The notes under the pieces were generated by a model that saw only the letters and a list, made by a program, of their open reading frames with translations, was not told the origin of the DNA and ran no database searches. Of a stretch of 64,000 nt of DNA, positions 4,500 to 48,963 are shown in pieces (position 1 is the stretch's first letter; the number at the start of each line of letters is the position of its first letter). A program made the translations under genes and the position numbers. Location of the stretch: contig JAGAKR010000023.1 in assembly GCA_017625535.1 (NCBI GenBank), forward strand, positions 147,157 through 211,156, given 5' to 3'. This DNA is from Bacteroidales bacterium (GTDB lineage: Bacteria; Bacteroidota; Bacteroidia; Bacteroidales; UBA932).

Positions 4500-4800
4500 G
4501 CCACAACTTCCGGTGCCAAAAGATACTCTTTTTTGCACCAAACTCCCTGCGGCATCAATTCCGGTGCAGAAAAGTGCTCATTTTTGCACCAAACTCCCCG
4601 CGCCATCAATTCCGGTGCAGAAAAGTGCTCATTTTTGCACCAAACTCCCTGCGGCATCAATTCCGGTGCAGAAAAGTGCTCATTTTTACACCAAACTCCC
4701 TGCGGCATCAATTCCGGTGCAGAAAAGTGCTCATTTTTACACCAAATTCACTGCGCCACAACTTCCGGTGCCAAAAGATACCCTTTTTTGCACCAAATCC
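4500..4800. repeat. 51-bp hairpin-repeat array, six units
   Basis: The unit start GGTGC falls at 4512, 4563, 4614, 4665, 4716 and 4767, exactly 51 bp apart. Each unit has a hairpin GGTGCAGAAA-loop-TTTTTGCACC followed by a linker around CTCCCTGCGGCATCAATTCC. The first and last units share a variant hairpin (GGTGCCAAAAGATAC) and an ACAACTTCC linker end that differ from the middle four. The array lies between the antiporter 3' end and the start of the pseudouridine synthase gene. Open frames through it arise because 51 is a multiple of three. Confidence 0.95.
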
Positions 4801-10599: not shown

Positions 10600-10680
10600 G
10601 CACCAAAAGTTGCTCCCTGTGAGTTTCGGTGCCTAAATGGGGCCTTTTCTGCACCGGAAATTTGTCGGGAGGAAGGTGCC
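10600..10680. repeat. Solitary copies of the GGTGC...GCACC hairpin repeat
   Basis: One clear hairpin runs from GGTGCC at 10628 to GCACC at 10651-10655. A partial GCACC lies at 10600 and a further GGTGCC at 10675. Spacing of the two GGTGCC starts is 47 bp, so the 51-bp phase is not kept here. TGTCGGGAGG follows the hairpin. The element sits between tilS and the permease gene, both on the minus strand. Confidence 0.75.
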
Positions 10681-11631: not shown

Positions 11632-11646
11632 ATCTCTGTACCTGAA

Positions 11647-11761
11647 GTCGTGTCTCGATTATACCTGTAGTCGTGTCTCGACTGTACTTGTAGTCGTGTC
11701 TCGACTGTACCTGTAGTCGTGTCTCGATTATACTTGTAGTCGTGTCTCGACTGTACCTGTT
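11647..11761. repeat. 23-bp tandem repeat array, five units (family 2)
   Basis: The core GTCGTGTCTCGA begins at 11647, 11670, 11693, 11716 and 11739, a perfect 23-bp step. The cores contain the short inverted repeat AGTCG/CGACT. Linkers alternate between CTGTACCTGT, CTGTACTTGT and TTATACCTGT or TTATACTTGT. There are no unique spacers, so this is not a CRISPR array. It fills the gap between the permease start and the 3' end of the metallophosphoesterase. The same unit occurs reversed at 15467-15560. Confidence 0.95.
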
Positions 11762-15466: not shown

Positions 15467-15560
15467 AAGTCGTGACACGGGTACAAGTACAGTCGTGACA
15501 CGACTACAAGTATAATCGAGACACGACTACAAGTCTAATCGTGACACGGGTTCACGGCGA
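15467..15560. repeat. 23-bp repeat array, four units, inverted relative to the 11.7-kb array (family 2)
   Basis: Cores begin at 15469 (GTCGTGACACGG), 15492 (GTCGTGACACGA), 15515 (ATCGAGACACGA) and 15538 (ATCGTGACACGG), each 23 bp apart. Read on the minus strand the linkers are GTACTTGT, TATACTTGT and similar, the same as in the array at 11647-11761. The array occupies most of the 126 bp between the tRNA-Lys terminator and the GH18 start. The operon's promoter must therefore lie within or against it. On the minus strand linkers such as TATACTTG are one mismatch from the TAnnTTTG -7 box. Confidence 0.92.
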
Positions 15561-15773: not shown

Positions 15774-16688
15774 ATGGAAAGTTTGTTCAAAAGCGGTTTC
15801 AGAAGTTTCCTGGAATCCTCATACATAGACTTTATTGAGTACGGCAACTCATTCATTTTCACAGACTACGATTTCTCGGTAGAACTCGTTCCCGCTTCTT
15901 TTTCAACAACCCTACAGGCGGAAAACTACGAGGAACTCGGGCCCCGGGTTTCGGGGAAGTCGGGGACCGACTTCCAGTCGGATTTGGAAAAGGAGAGGAT
16001 TTTTTTATACGAAGACCGGTGGTGGACGCAGAGGCAGATGGTACAGGAGAGAATTCTGGCGCGGCTTGAGAGGTTCAGGAGCATTTTTGCCCGCAAGTGC
16101 AGGGTGCTTACCGGGAGGGGGAATCCGCAGTTGGGTGAGTTGGTGAGGGAGTTCCTGCAGAAACATCACAGTTATTCAAGTGCAAAGTGCCGATACAGGT
16201 ATGCGCTTGAGTATGAGGGAGAGATTGTGGCAGTGGCAACCTTTTCTGAGGGAAGGCCAATGGTAAGGAAGATGGATACTCCGTTGCAGAATGTTCCCAA
16301 AGATGAACAGGAGAATGCAAACATTGTAATTTTTGATTCGTATGAGTGGGTCCGCTATGCTTCGCTCCCCGGAATAAGGGTTGTGGGAGGTATGGGGCGT
16401 CTTTTGAATACTTTCATTGAGGAGCGTTTTACCAGAATTGAGCCTGGTACCCCGCTGGAGATTATGACCTATTCCGATACGGAGTGGGGGAGCGGGGATG
16501 TGTACACAAAATTGGGTTTCCAGTTTGCAGGGGAGCGCCCCCCTGTGGAGTACCATGTGCACAAAAAGACATTTGTCCGTTACCAGCAGAGGCTCTACGA
16601 AAAAGAGCTCCAGAACGGAGCTCTTCCCGACGAATTTTATACAATTTACAATCAGGGCAGCAGAAAATTCCTGCTGCAAATCATCTGA
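15774..16688 (+). CDS. Conserved protein with Mom/Hef-like (GNAT-fold) domain
   Basis: A 304-residue cytoplasmic protein. Residues 145-275 follow the pattern of the Mom/Hef-like acyltransferase-fold proteins known from phages. The landmarks are AKCRYRYALEYEGEIVAVATF, then an E-W-V-R-Y-A segment, VVGGMGRLLNTF, and MTYSDTEWGSGDVYTKLGF (each shown in part). In that family the fold acts on DNA bases or has no known substrate. The first 130 residues, with an aromatic FTDYDFSVE strand, are not recognised. TAAATTTG at 15761-15768 just before the ATG resembles a -7 box but is too close to the start for a normal leader. The function is unknown. Confidence 0.6.
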   Translation: MESLFKSGFRSFLESSYIDFIEYGNSFIFTDYDFSVELVPASFSTTLQAENYEELGPRVSGKSGTDFQSDLEKERIFLYEDRWWTQRQMVQERILARLERFRSIFARKCRVLTGRGNPQLGELVREFLQKHHSYSSAKCRYRYALEYEGEIVAVATFSEGRPMVRKMDTPLQNVPKDEQENANIVIFDSYEWVRYASLPGIRVVGGMGRLLNTFIEERFTRIEPGTPLEIMTYSDTEWGSGDVYTKLGFQFAGERPPVEYHVHKKTFVRYQQRLYEKELQNGALPDEFYTIYNQGSRKFLLQII

Positions 16689-16693
16689 TTCCC

Positions 16694-16785
16694 TGCACCG
16701 AAAAGTTGCTTTCCCGGCATCCCGGCGCCAAAAAGTGTGTCTTTCTGCACCAAAAGTGGTCTTCCGGGAAGTCCGGTGCCAGAAT
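16694..16785. repeat. Two units of the 51-bp hairpin-repeat family
   Basis: GGCGCC at 16724 and GGTGCC at 16775 are 51 bp apart, and GCACC ends lie at 16694 and 16747. Linkers contain TCCCGGCATCCC and TTCCGGGAAGTCC. The element lies between two convergent genes (the Mom-like gene and clpC). Confidence 0.8.
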
Positions 16786-29313: not shown

Positions 29314-29500
29314 GGTGTCAGATACTTCCCATTTTGACACCGGATTCTTGTTTTCAGCCAGTCCGGTGCAGTTTTAACCCCATTATTGCACAAAATTTCA
29401 TTTCTGCTGCATTTTTGTGCAGAAAATGCAATGATTCTACACAAAACTTTCATTATGTCACAATATTGTGCTGATAACAGCACATTTCTGCACAATAATA
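29314..29500. repeat. Degenerate 51-bp hairpin-repeat array, four units, beginning with a DPP IV terminator
   Basis: GGTGTC at 29314, GGTGCA at 29365, TGTGCA at 29416 and TGTGCT at 29467 are each 51 bp apart, although later units have lost part of the GGTGC arm. The first unit forms a stem TCCGGTGTCA/TGACACCGGA followed by a T-rich tract and can serve as the terminator of DPP IV. A closely similar hairpin occurs after clpB at about 48092. The array is an older-looking member of the family. Confidence 0.8.
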
Positions 29501-43506: not shown

Positions 43507-43661
43507 AGTGTATTTTATTAAGGTTAATAATTATTTTCATTTCACCGGGCTTGTTCCCGACAAATTAATCCACACAAATATAACATTTCTTTTCTATCAC
43601 ACCAACTTTTTGAGTCCCCGTATGCTGTTTTCCACCCGCATCATTCCCGGCTATTGATCCC

Positions 43662-44303
43662 GGTGCAGAAAATGTCTCATTTGTGCACCTTTTCCCTCGG
43701 AGTATGCGGCTCCCGGTGCAGAAAATGCTCCATTTGTGCACCATTTTCGGCCGGGGATGATTTTTGGTGCAGAAAGACACTCATTTTTGCACCGAATTGG
43801 ACTTACTCTGGCTCCCGGTGCAGGAAATGCCCCATTTGTGCACCATTTTCGACCGGGGATGACTTTTGGTGCAGAAAGACACTCATTTTTGCACCGAATT
43901 GGACGCACTCCGGCTCCCGGTGCAGAAAAAGCCCCATTTGTGCACCATTTTCGACCGGGGATGACTTTTGGTGCAGAAAGACACTCATTTTTGCACCGAA
44001 TTGGACGCACTTCGGTTTCCGGTGCAGAAAATGCCCCATTTGTGTACCATTTTCGGCCGGGGATGACTTTTGGTGCAGGGAAACACTCATTTTTGCACCG
44101 GATTGGACGCACTCCGGTTCCCGGTGCAGAAAATGCCCCATTTGTGCACCATTTTCGGCCGGGGATGATTTTTGGTGCAGAAAGACACTCATTTTTGCAC
44201 TGGATTGGACGCACTCCGGTTCCCGGTGCAGAAAATGCCCCATTTGTGCACCATTTTCGGCCGGGGATGATTTTTGGTGCAGAAAATGCCCCATTTTTGC
44301 ACC
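43662..44303. repeat. 51-bp hairpin-repeat array upstream of the HUH transposase, 13 units
   Basis: GGTGC starts at 43662, 43715, 43766, 43817, 43868, 43919, 43970, 44021, 44072, 44123, 44174, 44225 and 44276; all steps after the first (53) are exactly 51 bp. Two hairpin types alternate. Type A is GGTGCAGAAAATGCCCC with ATTTGTGCACC and is followed by ATTTTCGGCCGGGGATGA. Type B is GGTGCAGAAAGACACTC with ATTTTTGCACC and is followed by GAATTGGACGCACTCCGG. The composite period is therefore 102 bp. ORFs through the array are by-products of the 17-codon step. It lies between divergent genes. Confidence 0.96.
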
Positions 44304-44463
44304 AAATCCTGTCGGGAAGCGTTTTTTTCTGCCGTAAAAATCCTCATCACACGGATAATTTGTCGGGAATAATCTTAAAAAGAGAAATGACGATAAATTT
44401 ACTCATGTTTTTACCCTTTTATCTCTCTTTACCAATTATTTCCATTATTATTGGCTCCAAAAA

Positions 44464-44469
44464 AGGAGG
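44464..44469 (+). promoter_or_regulatory. Shine-Dalgarno-like site before the transposase
   Basis: AGGAGG at 44464-44469 stands 5 bases before the ATG at 44475. Bacteroidetes genes generally lack such sites and no other gene in this window shows one this strong. It decides the start and hints at a foreign origin. Confidence 0.6.
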
Positions 44470-44474
44470 ATGTT

Positions 44475-45407
44475 ATGAGTATTGATGATTCTTGTGAATT
44501 TTTGTTCAGTGAAGGTGGGCCTTATTGGCATTTGTGTACTCCAGGGGAGTTTCAGTCTGTCATTTTTAAAGAGCGTGAGGATTATGTTTTTGGGATGAAT
44601 CTGGTGGCGTGGTGTGTTGCACATTATGAAGGAGCCATTAAAATTTATACATTCCAATTGATGAGCAATCATTTCCATTTTGTGCTTTCCGGTGATTACA
44701 GTATTGTCTATGAATTTTTTGCATTGTTGAAGAAGCGTCTGAGCCGTTATCTGGCTTCTAAAAATTCAGATACTGATATAAAGAAGTTGGATTGCAATTT
44801 TTTTGAAGTAAAAGATTTGCAGTATATGCGTACTGTTATTGCCTATGTAAACAGGAACGGATACCTGGTTGACAGGGATTCAACTCCTTATAATTATCAG
44901 TGGGGTGCAAACAGATTCTTTTTTTCGCCTGCTATAGAATATGAAACCCGAAAGTATCTCAGCACAGTTTCTAAAAGAAAATTAGGCGCAATTTTCAGTA
45001 CCCACGATATACAGTTCCCTGAAACATATTATTTTACAGGTAATTATGTCTCTCCGGCATCATATTGCAGTATAACTGCGGCAGAACAATTGTACCGGAA
45101 TGCGCATGATTATTTTCATTTTGTTTCCCGACGGGTTGAGTCTTTTTCTGATATTGCAAAGGAACTTGGTGATTATGTTGCTTATACAGATGAGGAGATT
45201 TATGCTGCAGCCGTTAGCATTTCTATGGGCAACTATAAAATGAAGTCTCCTAAATTATTGGGTGTAAGTGAGAAGATGCAGCTGGCCAAAGAACTGAAAT
45301 ACAAATATAATGCATCAATTAAGCAGATGAGGCGTATATTGGGTATGGATGAGAGGTTGCTTAATGAATTGTTTCCTGTGCCTGCCGGATTCCAAACTTC
45401 CAAGTGA
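44475..45407 (+). CDS. REP-associated tyrosine transposase (RAYT), Y1 HUH nuclease
   Basis: A 310-residue HUH endonuclease of the IS200-like Y1 transposase superfamily. The metal-binding HUH motif is SNHFHFVL near residue 70. The tyrosine helix region reads MRTVIAYVNRNGYLV near residue 125, equivalent to the YxxxNP block of RAYTs. The C-terminal 80 residues form a helix-turn-helix-like segment with MQLAKELKYKYNASIKQMRR. RAYTs nick palindromic REP sequences and are single-copy and non-autonomous-looking. This one is flanked directly by hairpin arrays sharing the same units on both sides, as expected of a RAYT locus. The ATG is chosen for its upstream AGGAGG. Confidence 0.85.
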   Translation: MSIDDSCEFLFSEGGPYWHLCTPGEFQSVIFKEREDYVFGMNLVAWCVAHYEGAIKIYTFQLMSNHFHFVLSGDYSIVYEFFALLKKRLSRYLASKNSDTDIKKLDCNFFEVKDLQYMRTVIAYVNRNGYLVDRDSTPYNYQWGANRFFFSPAIEYETRKYLSTVSKRKLGAIFSTHDIQFPETYYFTGNYVSPASYCSITAAEQLYRNAHDYFHFVSRRVESFSDIAKELGDYVAYTDEEIYAAAVSISMGNYKMKSPKLLGVSEKMQLAKELKYKYNASIKQMRRILGMDERLLNELFPVPAGFQTSK

Positions 45408-45431
45408 TATATACCTACCGCCTTGGGTTCT

Positions 45432-45716
45432 GGTGCAGGGAATGCTCCATCTGTGCACCGAATCCTGCGGGAAAGCAATTTTGGTGCAGAAAAACACTCT
45501 TTTTTGCACCGAATTGGACTCACTCCGGCTTCCGGTGCAGAAAATGCCCCATTTGTGCACCATTTTCGGCCGGGGATGATTTTTGGTGCAGGAAAACACT
45601 CTTTTTTGCACCGGATTGGACGCACTCCGGCTCCCGGTGCAGAAAATGCTCCATTTTGACACCAAATCCTGCGGGGAGGCGGCTTTTGGTGCAGGGAAAC
45701 ATTCTTTCCGGCACCG
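45432..45716. repeat. 51-bp hairpin-repeat array downstream of the HUH transposase, six units
   Basis: GGTGC starts at 45432, 45483, 45534, 45585, 45636 and 45688 (steps of 51, 51, 51, 51, 52). Inner units use the same alternating A and B hairpins and the same linkers (ATTTTCGGCCGGGGATGA, GGATTGGACGCACTCCGG) as the upstream array. The outer units carry AATCCTGCGGG linkers. The transposase gene therefore lies inside what looks like one larger array. The remaining 130 bp to the clpB-like gene hold TGTCGGGAGG and no other recognisable signal. Confidence 0.95.
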
Positions 45717-45846
45717 GATCGGGAAATGTGCCTGTCGGGAGGAGGGGGGATGAAGTGCCCTGTGTCTTGCCATTTTGGCAGAAAAAGTTGTTTGGTAAAT
45801 AATTTGAACGGAAATGGGGTGAAATGTGTTTGTTTAAAGCATAAAA

Positions 45847-48009
45847 ATGGAGGAAAGAATGAACAGTTACAATGGACAGAATGAGCAGGGCAGTGCGCTG
45901 AAGCGTTATGCCGTGAATTTGGTGGACCTTGCAAGGCAGGGCAAGTTGGATCCTGTCATTGGAAGGGATGAGGAAATCAGAAGGGTTCTGCAGATCTTGA
46001 GCAGACGTACAAAGAACAATCCTATTCTGGTGGGTGAGCCGGGAGTGGGAAAGACCGCTATTGCTGAGGGTCTTGCGCAGAGGATTGTGCACGGGGATGT
46101 TGCTGAGAACCTTAAGAACAAACTTATTTATTCTCTTGATATGGGTGCCTTAATTGCCGGTGCAAAGTATCAGGGTGAATTTGAGGAGAGGCTCAAAGGT
46201 GTTGTAAAGGAGGTGATTGAGAGCCAGGGTGAGATTATTCTTTATATAGATGAGATACATACCCTTGTGGGTGCGGGGAAGAGCAGCGGTGCAATGGATG
46301 CCGCAAATATCCTAAAACCAGCACTTGCACGTGGTGAACTCCGCACAGTTGGTTCTACAACCCTGGATGAGTATCAGAAATATTTTGAGCAGGACAAGGC
46401 CCTGGAGCGCCGTTTCCAGATGGTTATGGTTGATGAGCCTACCCCGGCTGAGAGCATTTCCATCCTCCGCGGCCTAAAGGAAAAGTATGAAAACCACCAC
46501 AAGGTGCGTATAGAGGACGATGCAATAATTGCCGCAGTGGACCTGTCGCACAGGTATATAACCAACCGTTTTCTTCCCGACAAAGCCATTGATCTCATTG
46601 ATGAGGCAGCCTCAAAACTGCGTCTGGAGATGAACTCTGTGCCCGAGAAGATTGATGAACTGAACAGGAAGATAAAGCAGCTGGAGATTGAGAAGGCTGC
46701 CATTAAGAGGGAGGGGAAATCGCCTAAACTCAATGATATCACAGCCCAGTTGGAGCAGTTGCAGGCGGAGCAGAAGGTTTATGACAAGCAGTGGAAGGAG
46801 GAAAAGGCGTTGCTGGACTCAATACAGAATAACCGTCGGGAGTTGGAAAATCTTAAAATTAAGGCTGATGAGGCGGAGAGGAACGGTGATTATGCCAAGG
46901 TTGCCGAGATAAGGTACGGCAAGATGGGTGATTTGCAGAAGGAGATTGAGGCGCTGCAGGCAAAGAAGGCTGCCAATGAGAATCCTCTTATTAATGAGGA
47001 GGTGAATCCGGAGGATATTGCTGAGGTGGTTGCAAAATGGACCGGCATTCCGGTTAAGAGGATGCTGCAGAGCGAGAAGGACAAATTGCTGCATCTGGAG
47101 GAGGAACTGCACAAGAGGGTGATTGGTCAGGATGAGGCCATAAAGGCTGTCTCTGATGCGGTAAGGCGCTCACGTGCAGGGCTTCAGAATGAGAAGAGGC
47201 CGTTGGGATCGTTCCTGTTCCTTGGAACAACAGGAGTGGGAAAGACAGAACTTGCAAAGGCGCTGGCCGAGTTCCTATTCAATGATGAGAACCTTATGAC
47301 CAGGATTGATATGAGCGAGTATCAGGAGAGTTTTGCCGTTACCCGTCTGGTTGGTGCGCCTCCGGGCTATGTGGGTTACGATGAGGGTGGGCAACTTACC
47401 GAGGCTGTAAGGCGCAAACCTTACTCTGTGGTGCTGTTTGATGAGATTGAGAAAGCGCATCCCGATGTGTTCAATGTGCTGCTGCAGGTTCTGGATGACG
47501 GCCGCCTTACAGACGGCAAGGGGCGTACGGTGAATTTCAAGAATACAATCCTCATTATGACCAGCAATGTGGGAAGCGACATCATTCAGGATTATATGCT
47601 AAAGATCAATGATGTGAACAAGGAGCAGGCATTGCAGGACTGCAAGGATGCAGTGCTGGAGGTGCTCAAGAGGAGCGTAAGGCCTGAGTTCCTGAACCGT
47701 ATTGATGAGGTGATTATGTTTGAGCCGCTTACTCCAGGTGATATCCGCGGCATACTTATGCTGCAGATTTCCCAGATACAGCAGATGCTCCAGGAAAAGG
47801 GTATTGTATTGGAGTTTGCACCGGCAGCACTCGATTACCTGGCATCCAAAGGGTTTGACATTGCCTACGGAGCCCGCCCTATAAAGAGGCTGCTGCAGAA
47901 AGAACTCATAAATGAGTTGGCAACCGGAATCATCAGCGGCAATGTGGCTGCAGGCGGCAACATTCTGGTTGATGTGCAGGATGGGAAACTTGTTTTCAGG
48001 GGGGAATAA
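45847..48009 (+). CDS. clpB: ClpB-type disaggregase lacking its N-terminal domain
   Basis: A 720-residue AAA+ protein. It begins with a 16-residue leader and then directly with [20 protein letters not shown], which in normal ClpB (about 860 residues) follows the 150-residue Clp_N domain. Both ATPase domains are complete (GEPGVGKTA near 60 and GTTGVGKTE near 460), and the long coiled-coil middle domain (about 260-380) identifies ClpB rather than ClpC. It should still hexamerise and work with DnaK but would miss the substrate-docking domain. The missing part coincides with the RAYT/repeat locus directly upstream. Confidence 0.88.
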
Positions 48010-48091
48010 AGTGCCTGCAGGAAAAGGAGTTGCCTCAGACGTAGTGATGTGATTCTGTAGTGGAGAGTTGCCTCTTGGGTAATGAATTTGA

Positions 48092-48275
48092 TCCGGTGTC
48101 AGAAATGCTTGCATTTGGCACCGGATTTCTTTTTCCCGACAGATTGGTGCATGAAAGAGTGTTTTTCTGCACCAAAAGCTGCCTTCCGGGAAGTCCGGTG
48201 CACAGATTGGGCATTTTCTGCACCGGGAGTGATTTGTCGGGAAGAATGGTGCACAGATGGGGCATTTTCTGCACC
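48092..48275. repeat. 51-bp hairpin-repeat array after clpB, four units
   Basis: GGTGTC at 48095, GGTGCA at 48146, GGTGCA at 48197 and GGTGCA at 48248 are each 51 bp apart. The first hairpin (ATCCGGTGTCAGAAATGC with GCATTTGGCACCGGAT) is followed by TTTCTTTTTC and is likely the clpB terminator. It closely resembles the DPP IV terminator hairpin at 29311. Later hairpins end in TTTTCTGCACC. TCCCGACA and TGTCGGGA lie in the linkers. Confidence 0.92.
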
Positions 48276-48315
48276 AAAGCGGCCTGCTGGGGAAGTGGGG
48301 GGCTGATGGAAGGCA

Positions 48316-48349
48316 TTTGTTGTTCCTGGCAGTATTTTTGTTAATTTTG
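48316..48349 (+). promoter_or_regulatory. Candidate Bacteroidetes promoter
   Basis: TTTG at 48316-48319 and TAATTTTG at 48342-48349 match the -33 and -7 boxes with a 22-bp gap. The expected start is within a few bases of the ATG at 48358, so the transcript may be almost leaderless. Confidence 0.55.
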
Positions 48350-48357
48350 CATTTTGT

Positions 48358-48963
48358 ATGATAGGGCTTTTTAATGAATATAAGAGGAAGAAGGCATTTG
48401 CAGCGGCACTGAAGGTGCGTGAGGGCAGGGCAATGCAGCAGCCGCAGTTCCCGGGTTATGGGGAGTTGCGTTCTGTGGGCTTTTTGTGTGAACTGGAGAA
48501 GGGTGGAGATCCGCAGCAGGTGGCTGATATAGTTGCGTCGTTCAGGAAAGAGGGGCTTCCGTATAAAGGGATGGTTCTGGAAACCGGAAGTGCCTTTAAG
48601 GATGAGGCGGCAAGGGAGGAGTTTGCTGCTTTGTGCCGGAGCAACAATGTGGTGTTCGTAGAGTACAGGCTTCTTGGAGGCACAGGGATTCCACAGGAAC
48701 CGCAGTTTTCTGAAAATGAAGAGGTAAAGGCATTTTTTGCAACCAGTTACAACCTGTTTGTGAACCTTAACCGCAACGGCAGCTTTACATTGGACCTCCT
48801 TGCACTTGGAGCAGATGCCCAATGCCTTGCAGGAATGTGCAACAACACAAAAATGCCATATACCCTGGTAATGGAGCCTCCAAAAGAGGATTTCTCTTTT
48901 TCCCGATATATCAACGCCCTTTTCAGTTATTTCAAGACAATAAATGCCAACAGGGCAGAGTGA
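48358..48963 (+). CDS. Conserved hypothetical protein (DUF6913-like)
   Basis: A 201-residue cytoplasmic protein without a signal peptide. It begins with a basic stretch (NEYKRKKAFAAALKVREGRA), then a conserved GFLCELEKGG strand and a C-terminal half with NLFVNLNRNGSFTLDLLALG. This resembles a small family restricted to Bacteroidetes that I recall as DUF6913; that name is not certain. The function is unknown. It is followed after 115 bp by the TPR gene and probably shares its transcript. Confidence 0.6.
   Translation: MIGLFNEYKRKKAFAAALKVREGRAMQQPQFPGYGELRSVGFLCELEKGGDPQQVADIVASFRKEGLPYKGMVLETGSAFKDEAAREEFAALCRSNNVVFVEYRLLGGTGIPQEPQFSENEEVKAFFATSYNLFVNLNRNGSFTLDLLALGADAQCLAGMCNNTKMPYTLVMEPPKEDFSFSRYINALFSYFKTINANRAE

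Follow-up and report, generated by a model that had tools for sequence, protein, structure and literature searches.

A RAYT-like transposase gene between arrays of evenly spaced hairpins in a Bacteroidales genome

The locus and its transposase

The stretch of DNA analysed here (64,000 nucleotides, referred to as the window) is part of a metagenome-type Bacteroidales assembly of 2.18 Mb in 31 contigs that is 88.6% complete, named G000 below. An open reading frame of this window lies between two arrays of short hairpins, and the following features were delimited, with the extent of the whole cassette derived from a comparison with a relative of the same genus (G008).

43662 to 44303, + strand: left array of 13 hairpins, each 28 nt long, types A and B alternating; 11 of 12 steps are 51 bp
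44475 to 45407, + strand: RAYT-like HUH/Y1 transposase gene, 310 aa (open reading frame, motifs and conserved residues)
45432 to 45715, + strand (shared with the left array): right array of 6 hairpins, each 28 nt long, with a 51-bp step in 4 of 5 cases
43607 to 45767, + strand: cassette (array, gene and array), approximate extent; without counterpart between the C1 peptidase gene and clpB in G008

The 13 and 6 units that the initial annotation had placed on the two sides of the gene were confirmed, and all 19 hairpins are on the + strand. Two unit types, A (GGTGCAGAAAATGCCCCATTTGTGCACC) and B (GGTGCAGAAAGACACTCATTTTTGCACC), alternate together with two linkers and form a 102-bp composite, which TRF detected with 5.9 copies in the left array (score 999) and 2.7 copies in the right one (score 324). 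The identity of a hairpin to the next and to the next-but-one unit is 0.79 and 0.92, respectively, in the left array, and 0.70 and 0.88 in the right array. Fifteen of the 17 steps are exactly 51 bp, and the two others are 53 and 52 bp. The strict step reported initially thus holds for most of the locus, but it is no peculiarity of it, as 51/52 bp is common in the clade. Similarly, the A/B alternation is genuine at this locus but is not a rule, being clear in 4 of the 10 G000 arrays tested, two of these four being the halves of this locus.

None of 200 shuffled sequences matched the fold of type A and four matched that of type B; by a stricter inverted-repeat score, the two array segments of the window were not beyond 95% of the shuffles (P = 0.09 and 0.16). 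A GT[AG]G foot was found within 10 nt 5' of none of the 19 units, nor was its complement found within 10 nt 3'. A CRISPR array was ruled out, as the linkers themselves are repeated; no match to cas genes was obtained among the four ORFs scanned, and Rfam at the gathering threshold detected only four tRNAs in the window.

The 310-residue protein contains an HxH motif at residues 66 and 68 (SNHFHF), Tyr124 in YVNRNG and Trp143, as well as a conserved C-terminal region with the motif NAS.KQ.RR.L, which gives the impression of a helix-turn-helix. The active-site residues are intact, with H66, H68, Y124, N128 and W143 invariant in all 25 aligned proteins, i.e. the window protein and 24 of the 25 relatives from a peptide-pattern scan (L107 was left out). 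The Pfam family Y1_Tnp was matched at E ≤ 0.01 by 7 of these 25 proteins, including that of the window, whose match is below the cut-off (E = 0.0069, 17 bits vs 23). A profile search of solved structures placed transposase chains on top, although weakly; the best was 2xm3 (E = 0.037), which we take to be ISDra2 TnpA. The assignment to the HUH/Tyr enzymes is based on these three lines together, the conserved residues, the Y1_Tnp matches and the weak structural match. The Y---NP signature of class 2 is absent from the window protein, which has YVNRNG instead; NP occurs in L031, L032, L033 and L001, which are relatives within the same genome.

The dN/dS ratios are 0.06 to 0.19 in nine ortholog pairs (68 to 95% identity), rough values as dS exceeds 1.6 in four of them, and 0.18 to 0.28 in three remoter pairs (47 to 59% identity) in which dS is saturated. 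These ratios show purifying selection on the gene, and the enzyme looks maintained. Several near-identical copies, by which an IS200/IS605 insertion sequence would be recognised, were not found in the 88.6% complete assembly, the best other match in G000 being 45% identical.

Relatives of the transposase and their repeats

Relatives of the transposase were found in 23 of 39 genomes of the genus, one genome per species, with 59 match rows corresponding to 57 genes. G000 contains five such genes, this one included, in addition to L001, a more typical Y1_Tnp gene. The peptide-pattern scan, run with two patterns on 84,980 species, yielded 25 loci, 8 of which duplicate loci of the genus, and all come from records with the name Bacteroidales, Bacteroidaceae or Bacteroidia. 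Among named records, the closest ones that carry transposases of this clade are Bacteroidales MAGs, and several of these stem from the gut of ruminants or horses. When 393 genomes of the order, each at least 85% complete, were searched with a profile, matches at E ≤ 1e-25, a threshold that would miss weaker relatives, were obtained in 4 genomes including G000, all of one family and in 2 of 205 genera.

In 33 of the 57 genes of the genus, the sequences on the two sides of the gene match above the 99% level obtained for 3192 mismatched pairs; significant matches were not seen in the other 24, two of which have almost no upstream sequence. The initial annotation had made the link between enzyme and hairpins depend on agreement between transposase phylogeny and repeat type, and the repeat type was found to follow the identity of the transposase and not the genome. 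Together with 17 genes from records outside the 39 genomes, the 57 genes make up a set of 74 distinct genes, of which the 70 open ones were used for pair comparison and tree (four with an internal stop were dropped). Repeats are shared (score ≥ 40) by 9 of the 25 pairs that are at least 60% identical vs 2 of the 2390 pairs below 60%, and all 11 repeat-sharing pairs link different genomes or records. The two exceptions below 60% are L031/L040 (24% identity, score 78) and L033/L074 (58%, score 71). Within one genome, paralogues are surrounded by different repeats, as are the four close paralogues found in G006.

These data bear on the possibility that the transposase gene is a passenger, which inserted into pre-existing hairpin arrays made by something else; a comparable situation is described for ISPpu9, found within REP sequences in Pseudomonas putida (PMC8450116). 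Such an origin is at odds with a repeat that differs from one transposase clade to the next and is the same on both sides of the gene, as well as with the different repeats around paralogues of one genome.

Copy number also tracks the transposase, a check that had been proposed initially. With a covariance model of the hairpin, at least 48 copies were detected in G000 vs 3 across the 38 other genomes, i.e. at least 2 in G008, which holds related RAYTs, and at least 1, marginal, in G013, and none among the candidates scored in the other 36. These counts are lower bounds, with at most 150 candidates scored per genome, and the 30 training rows of the model are all from the window. An exact hairpin pattern, which involves no training, gave 26 matches in G000, one of which is only 25 nt long and chance-like, vs none for the reversed control. 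It was further found at one two-unit site with a 51-bp step in G008 and as single, chance-like matches of 25 nt in G001 and G012, and it was absent from the other 35 genomes of the genus.

Two further repeat families broadly follow their RAYTs as predicted. The TTGTCAC..GTGACAA pattern has 10 sites in G008 and 6 in G006, which are the two genomes with its RAYT, one site each in G025 and G037, and none in 35 genomes. The TTGTGCAG..CTGCACAA pattern has 14 sites in G000, of which 10 adjoin its RAYT, one site each in G011, G013 and G029, and none in 35 genomes. A match to this last pattern is overlapped by a mixed array of GGTGCA- and TGTGCA-type hairpins with a step of 51 at L154 (G000 contig C9, 114.5 kb). 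Hairpins beside distant relatives (L105, also L099, L101 and L104) have a common GTGC core, and that of L105 (..GGTGCAGAAAGACTGATTTTGCACC..) resembles type B of the window.

The following hairpin units are dispersed in the window, away from the transposase gene.

4512 to 4794, + strand: array of 6 units, step 51 (TRF and pattern)
10628 to 10655, - strand: single hairpin (covariance model; also a row of its training alignment)
16673 to 16751, - strand: two degenerate units 52 bp apart (unit 16724 to 16751 is a row of the training alignment)
29365 to 29494, + strand: three diverged units (GGTGCA/TGTGCA..TGCACA), step 51, missed by the covariance model
48146 to 48275, - strand: array of 3 units, step 51, downstream of clpB; a fourth degenerate unit adjoins

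Some clustering around the gene was observed. Four of the seven exact-pattern sites away from the RAYT, a set that leaves out the 25-nt match, are on the RAYT's contig, which represents 9.7% of the assembly (P = 0.0024), and three of six remain there when the site just beyond clpB is left out (P = 0.014). A version with 12 sites gave 7 on one contig (P = 4e-5), but it contains training sites of the covariance model, and the 7-site test was therefore preferred. This distribution resembles that described for some RAYTs, whose REPs cluster within two hundred kilobases (PMC2817692).

Tandem repeats of 23 bp (CTGTACCTGTAGTCGTGTCTCGA / TCGTGACACGACTACAAGTATAA) were also noticed in the window, at 11636 to 11760 and 15470 to 15548. 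By eye, they resemble those flanking L001 (G000 contig C18, near 91.7 kb), so that the repeats of a second RAYT also seem to be present in the window.

Sites with and without the cassette

In G008, the tblastn matches to the C1 peptidase and to ClpB are 212 bp apart and both flanks align without the cassette, from which the cassette was taken to span about 43607 to 45767; owing to the divergence of the flanks, these ends are approximate. No array is present where the two flanks of G008 join. Likewise, no RAYT is found between the C1 peptidase gene and clpB in G013 (411 bp) or G020 (203 bp). Among the 30 clpB loci read, with flanks of up to about 1.5 kb, a RAYT is present in three, those of G000, G006 and G010, and in the latter two the C1 peptidase on the other side is 87% and 86% identical, respectively, over the part covered. 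The RAYTs in the clpB gap of G006 and G010 are 50% and 47% identical to that of the window, vs 91% for ClpB, and they stand in 51-bp arrays of other hairpins. By comparison, RAYT orthologs of G006 and G008 at other places are 80 to 86% identical, for a ClpB identity of 93%. The gap is therefore read as a re-used site or as one where a replacement occurred, and the diverged RAYTs of three species in it are not explained by a simple vertical history.

The gap downstream of clpB (window 48009 to 48358; L113, L115, L126 and L128) contains repeats whose type, by eye, varies by species: GGTGCA in G000, TCCAC in G008 and G006, a GCGACG type in G010 and a GTCGTG type in G013. This gap looks as if it were a landing site.

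A passenger gene would be compatible with the apparent re-use of the gap between the C1 peptidase gene and clpB and with the repeats downstream of clpB, the type of which, by eye, is unlike that of G000 in 4 of 5 relatives. However, it is the whole cassette that G008 is without, and no array is left where its flanks join. In view of both sets of data, we consider that a passenger origin of the gene is quite improbable.

The array at 4512 to 4794 was not found at the orthologous gap of any of the 5 relatives examined, and the orthologous gaps of a second dispersed array showed no clear empty site. The exact insertion ends were not located, as the flanks of the relatives are too diverged.

The most over-represented 8-mer of the window is TCCCGACA, with 32 occurrences on both strands vs 0.7 expected. 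Its density is 0.3 to 1.0 per kb in the loci analysed from G006, G008, G010, G013 and G019, and 0.03 to 0.05 per kb in the other sets counted. It was rejected as a target signal near array edges, since it is enriched throughout the window and also occurs at the RAYT-less site of G013; it may be a motif of the Chi or KOPS kind in this species group.

The recurrent pitch and the interpretation of the system

The pitch was analysed in the 144 flanks of at least 250 bp of the 74 genes, 9 of the 135 lags tested being 51/52 or a multiple. Strong periodicity was found in 89 flanks, and the best self-similarity lag was 51/52 or a multiple in 58 of these. Such a flank is present at 41 of the 74 loci, the other 33 having no strong 51/52 lag, and the records from outside the 39 genomes show it in 12 of 17 strong flanks. 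Of the 91 control segments, 7 were strong, 4 of them with a 51/52 lag, and the clpB control loci hold dispersed arrays in places. Pitch-positive genes make up 22 of 31 and 15 of 18 in two clades (support 100 each) and 2 of 21 elsewhere. Pooled, the two clades give 37 of 49 vs 2 of 21 (Fisher P = 4e-7, uncorrected for relatedness and on a tree made by a quick method). Two further positives with internal stops, L043 and L107, are outside the tree.

The best inverted repeats of the arrays span 17 to 40 nt, and 30 of the 58 array segments beat 95% of the shuffles; the same pitch occurs with hairpins of different sequence and span. In G000, 60 steps were selected by hand from 14 arrays, and 53 of them are exactly 51; weak matches (3 to 4 mismatches) at irregular distances, for instance 49, 53 or 74, were excluded from this set, in which adjacent units average 63% identity. 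A control of indels against substitutions yielded 0.64 indels per substitution, but this ratio is inflated by the gap settings and A/B pairs are counted repeatedly, so that only the step counts were relied on. In a second genus, a 51/52 lag was present at 2 of 7 loci, the others showing 73/146, 148, 84, 46 to 48 or nothing clear, and periods of other relatives are 39/40, 78 and 93. A helical-phase rule valid for all clades was rejected, as it is contradicted by the periods of 39/40, 78 and 23 bp.

Ordinary tandem repetition by replication slippage or recombination, with the enzyme irrelevant to the upkeep of the arrays, would lengthen them by whole units and keep the step locally, and next-but-one units are highly similar here (0.92 and 0.88). 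It leaves unexplained that 41 of 74 genes, whose units are unrelated, have 51/52 or a multiple in their flanks, that the same step is kept elsewhere in G000 between units as different as those of the 60-step set, and that copies track the gene. We therefore regard it as very improbable.

Alternatively, the arrays may have become functional elements of the host, such as terminators or sites for gyrase or nucleoid proteins, that a former transposase now only maintains. The pitch approximates 5 x 10.4 bp and persists as the unit sequence diverges; about five helical turns could serve DNA-bound proteins, BIME-2 elements are described to bind gyrase (PMC2817692), and purifying selection on the gene would fit as well. 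Against this, other relatives have periods of 39/40 and 78, 93, 84 or 73/146, and the arrays examined are missing at the orthologous sites of relatives, which indicates that the group can do without these arrays. A host function of this kind is thus unlikely.

The interpretation of the locus as a RAYT acting on REP-like hairpins is supported, since copies track the gene and the repeat type follows the transposase identity, and we estimate its probability at about three in four. The protein would be a single-strand DNA endonuclease of the HUH/Tyr1 type, a domesticated relative of the IS200/IS605 TnpA, with the adjoining 28-nt hairpin as its cognate substrate. The hairpin would fold when the DNA is single-stranded, e.g. 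on the lagging-strand template, and the enzyme may recognise its arms and foot. Tyr124 would nick equivalent points of neighbouring units and the enzyme would join the ends, so that a block of one or several complete units (51 nt each, or 102 nt for an A+B pair) could leave or enter. Exchange of blocks would keep the arrays in register, copies would spread mainly to nearby intergenic sites, and enzyme and hairpins would diverge jointly without a change of the 51/52 pitch.

RAYTs among REPs, with which they co-evolve and which they multiply locally, were published in 2010 (PMC2817692). As in those systems, an HUH/Y1 gene is here flanked by its own hairpins, E. coli having BIME-2 on both sides (PMC2817692, PMC8266576). 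The described RAYT/REP systems also share repeats that are dispersed, strain-specific, track the gene and, in some hosts, cluster near it, and rayt genes that diverge faster than their neighbours. Unlike them, the present units have no GTAG foot and the protein is longer, with a conserved C-terminal region. The foot is described as needed by the E. coli enzyme, whereas its mutation is largely tolerated by the S. maltophilia and Marinomonas enzymes (PMC8266576). In BIMEs the orientation alternates and the linkers are described as variable, whereas the 19 units found here have one orientation, which also differs from the inverted arrangement in REPINs. The recurrence of a 51/52-bp pitch across unrelated hairpins likewise sets the present arrays apart from RAYT/REP/BIME systems as described.

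Among the TnpA-Y1 enzymes, subclass 2.6 comes close: it occurs in Bacteroidetes, with atypical hairpins ('atypical secondary structures') beside the TnpA-REP genes, no consensus GT[AG]G and copies elsewhere in the genome (PMC6006769). By its description, however, it is set apart from the present clade, with a median of 179 aa and YIH[QN]NP vs 310 aa and YVNRNG, and fixed-pitch arrays are not mentioned in the sections of that article bearing on it (PMC6006769). Subclass 2.1 and the TIRYTs resemble the present protein by their greater length and an extra conserved C-terminal domain (PMC6006769, PMC3733652), but subclass 2.1 is reported without REP-like repeats (PMC6006769) and TIRYTs have terminal inverted repeats (PMC3733652). 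Pseudomonas fluorescens SBW25 has tandem arrays of evenly spaced REPs at fixed distances of 112 and 72 bp (PMC3116915). There, the REPIN is a REP doublet and the spacing belongs to one genome, and the relevant sections report no pitch common to unrelated REP families (PMC3116915).

The initial annotation had suggested an undescribed Bacteroidales REP system. In line with this, no description of the clade or of a shared 51/52-bp pitch was found in the literature searched, subscription papers being mostly outside its scope. The general behaviour of RAYTs is already known; what is new is tag-less arrays on one strand with a recurrent pitch.

These systems bear on the way in which REP arrays come about. 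A tentative explanation for the pitch is that it is dictated by the enzyme, which might measure a fixed unit, either as a single-hairpin circle of 51/52 nt of single-stranded DNA or as an oligomer placed every five helical turns. Since one pitch is kept despite hairpins that differ in sequence and span, the pitch, the specificity of the enzyme and the growth of the arrays can be tested separately on natural variants, for which the several enzyme-repeat pairs that coexist in one genome provide internal controls. If the enzyme does act as a ruler, the hairpin sequence may drift freely, and these transposases would represent a class of repeat builders equipped with a ruler.
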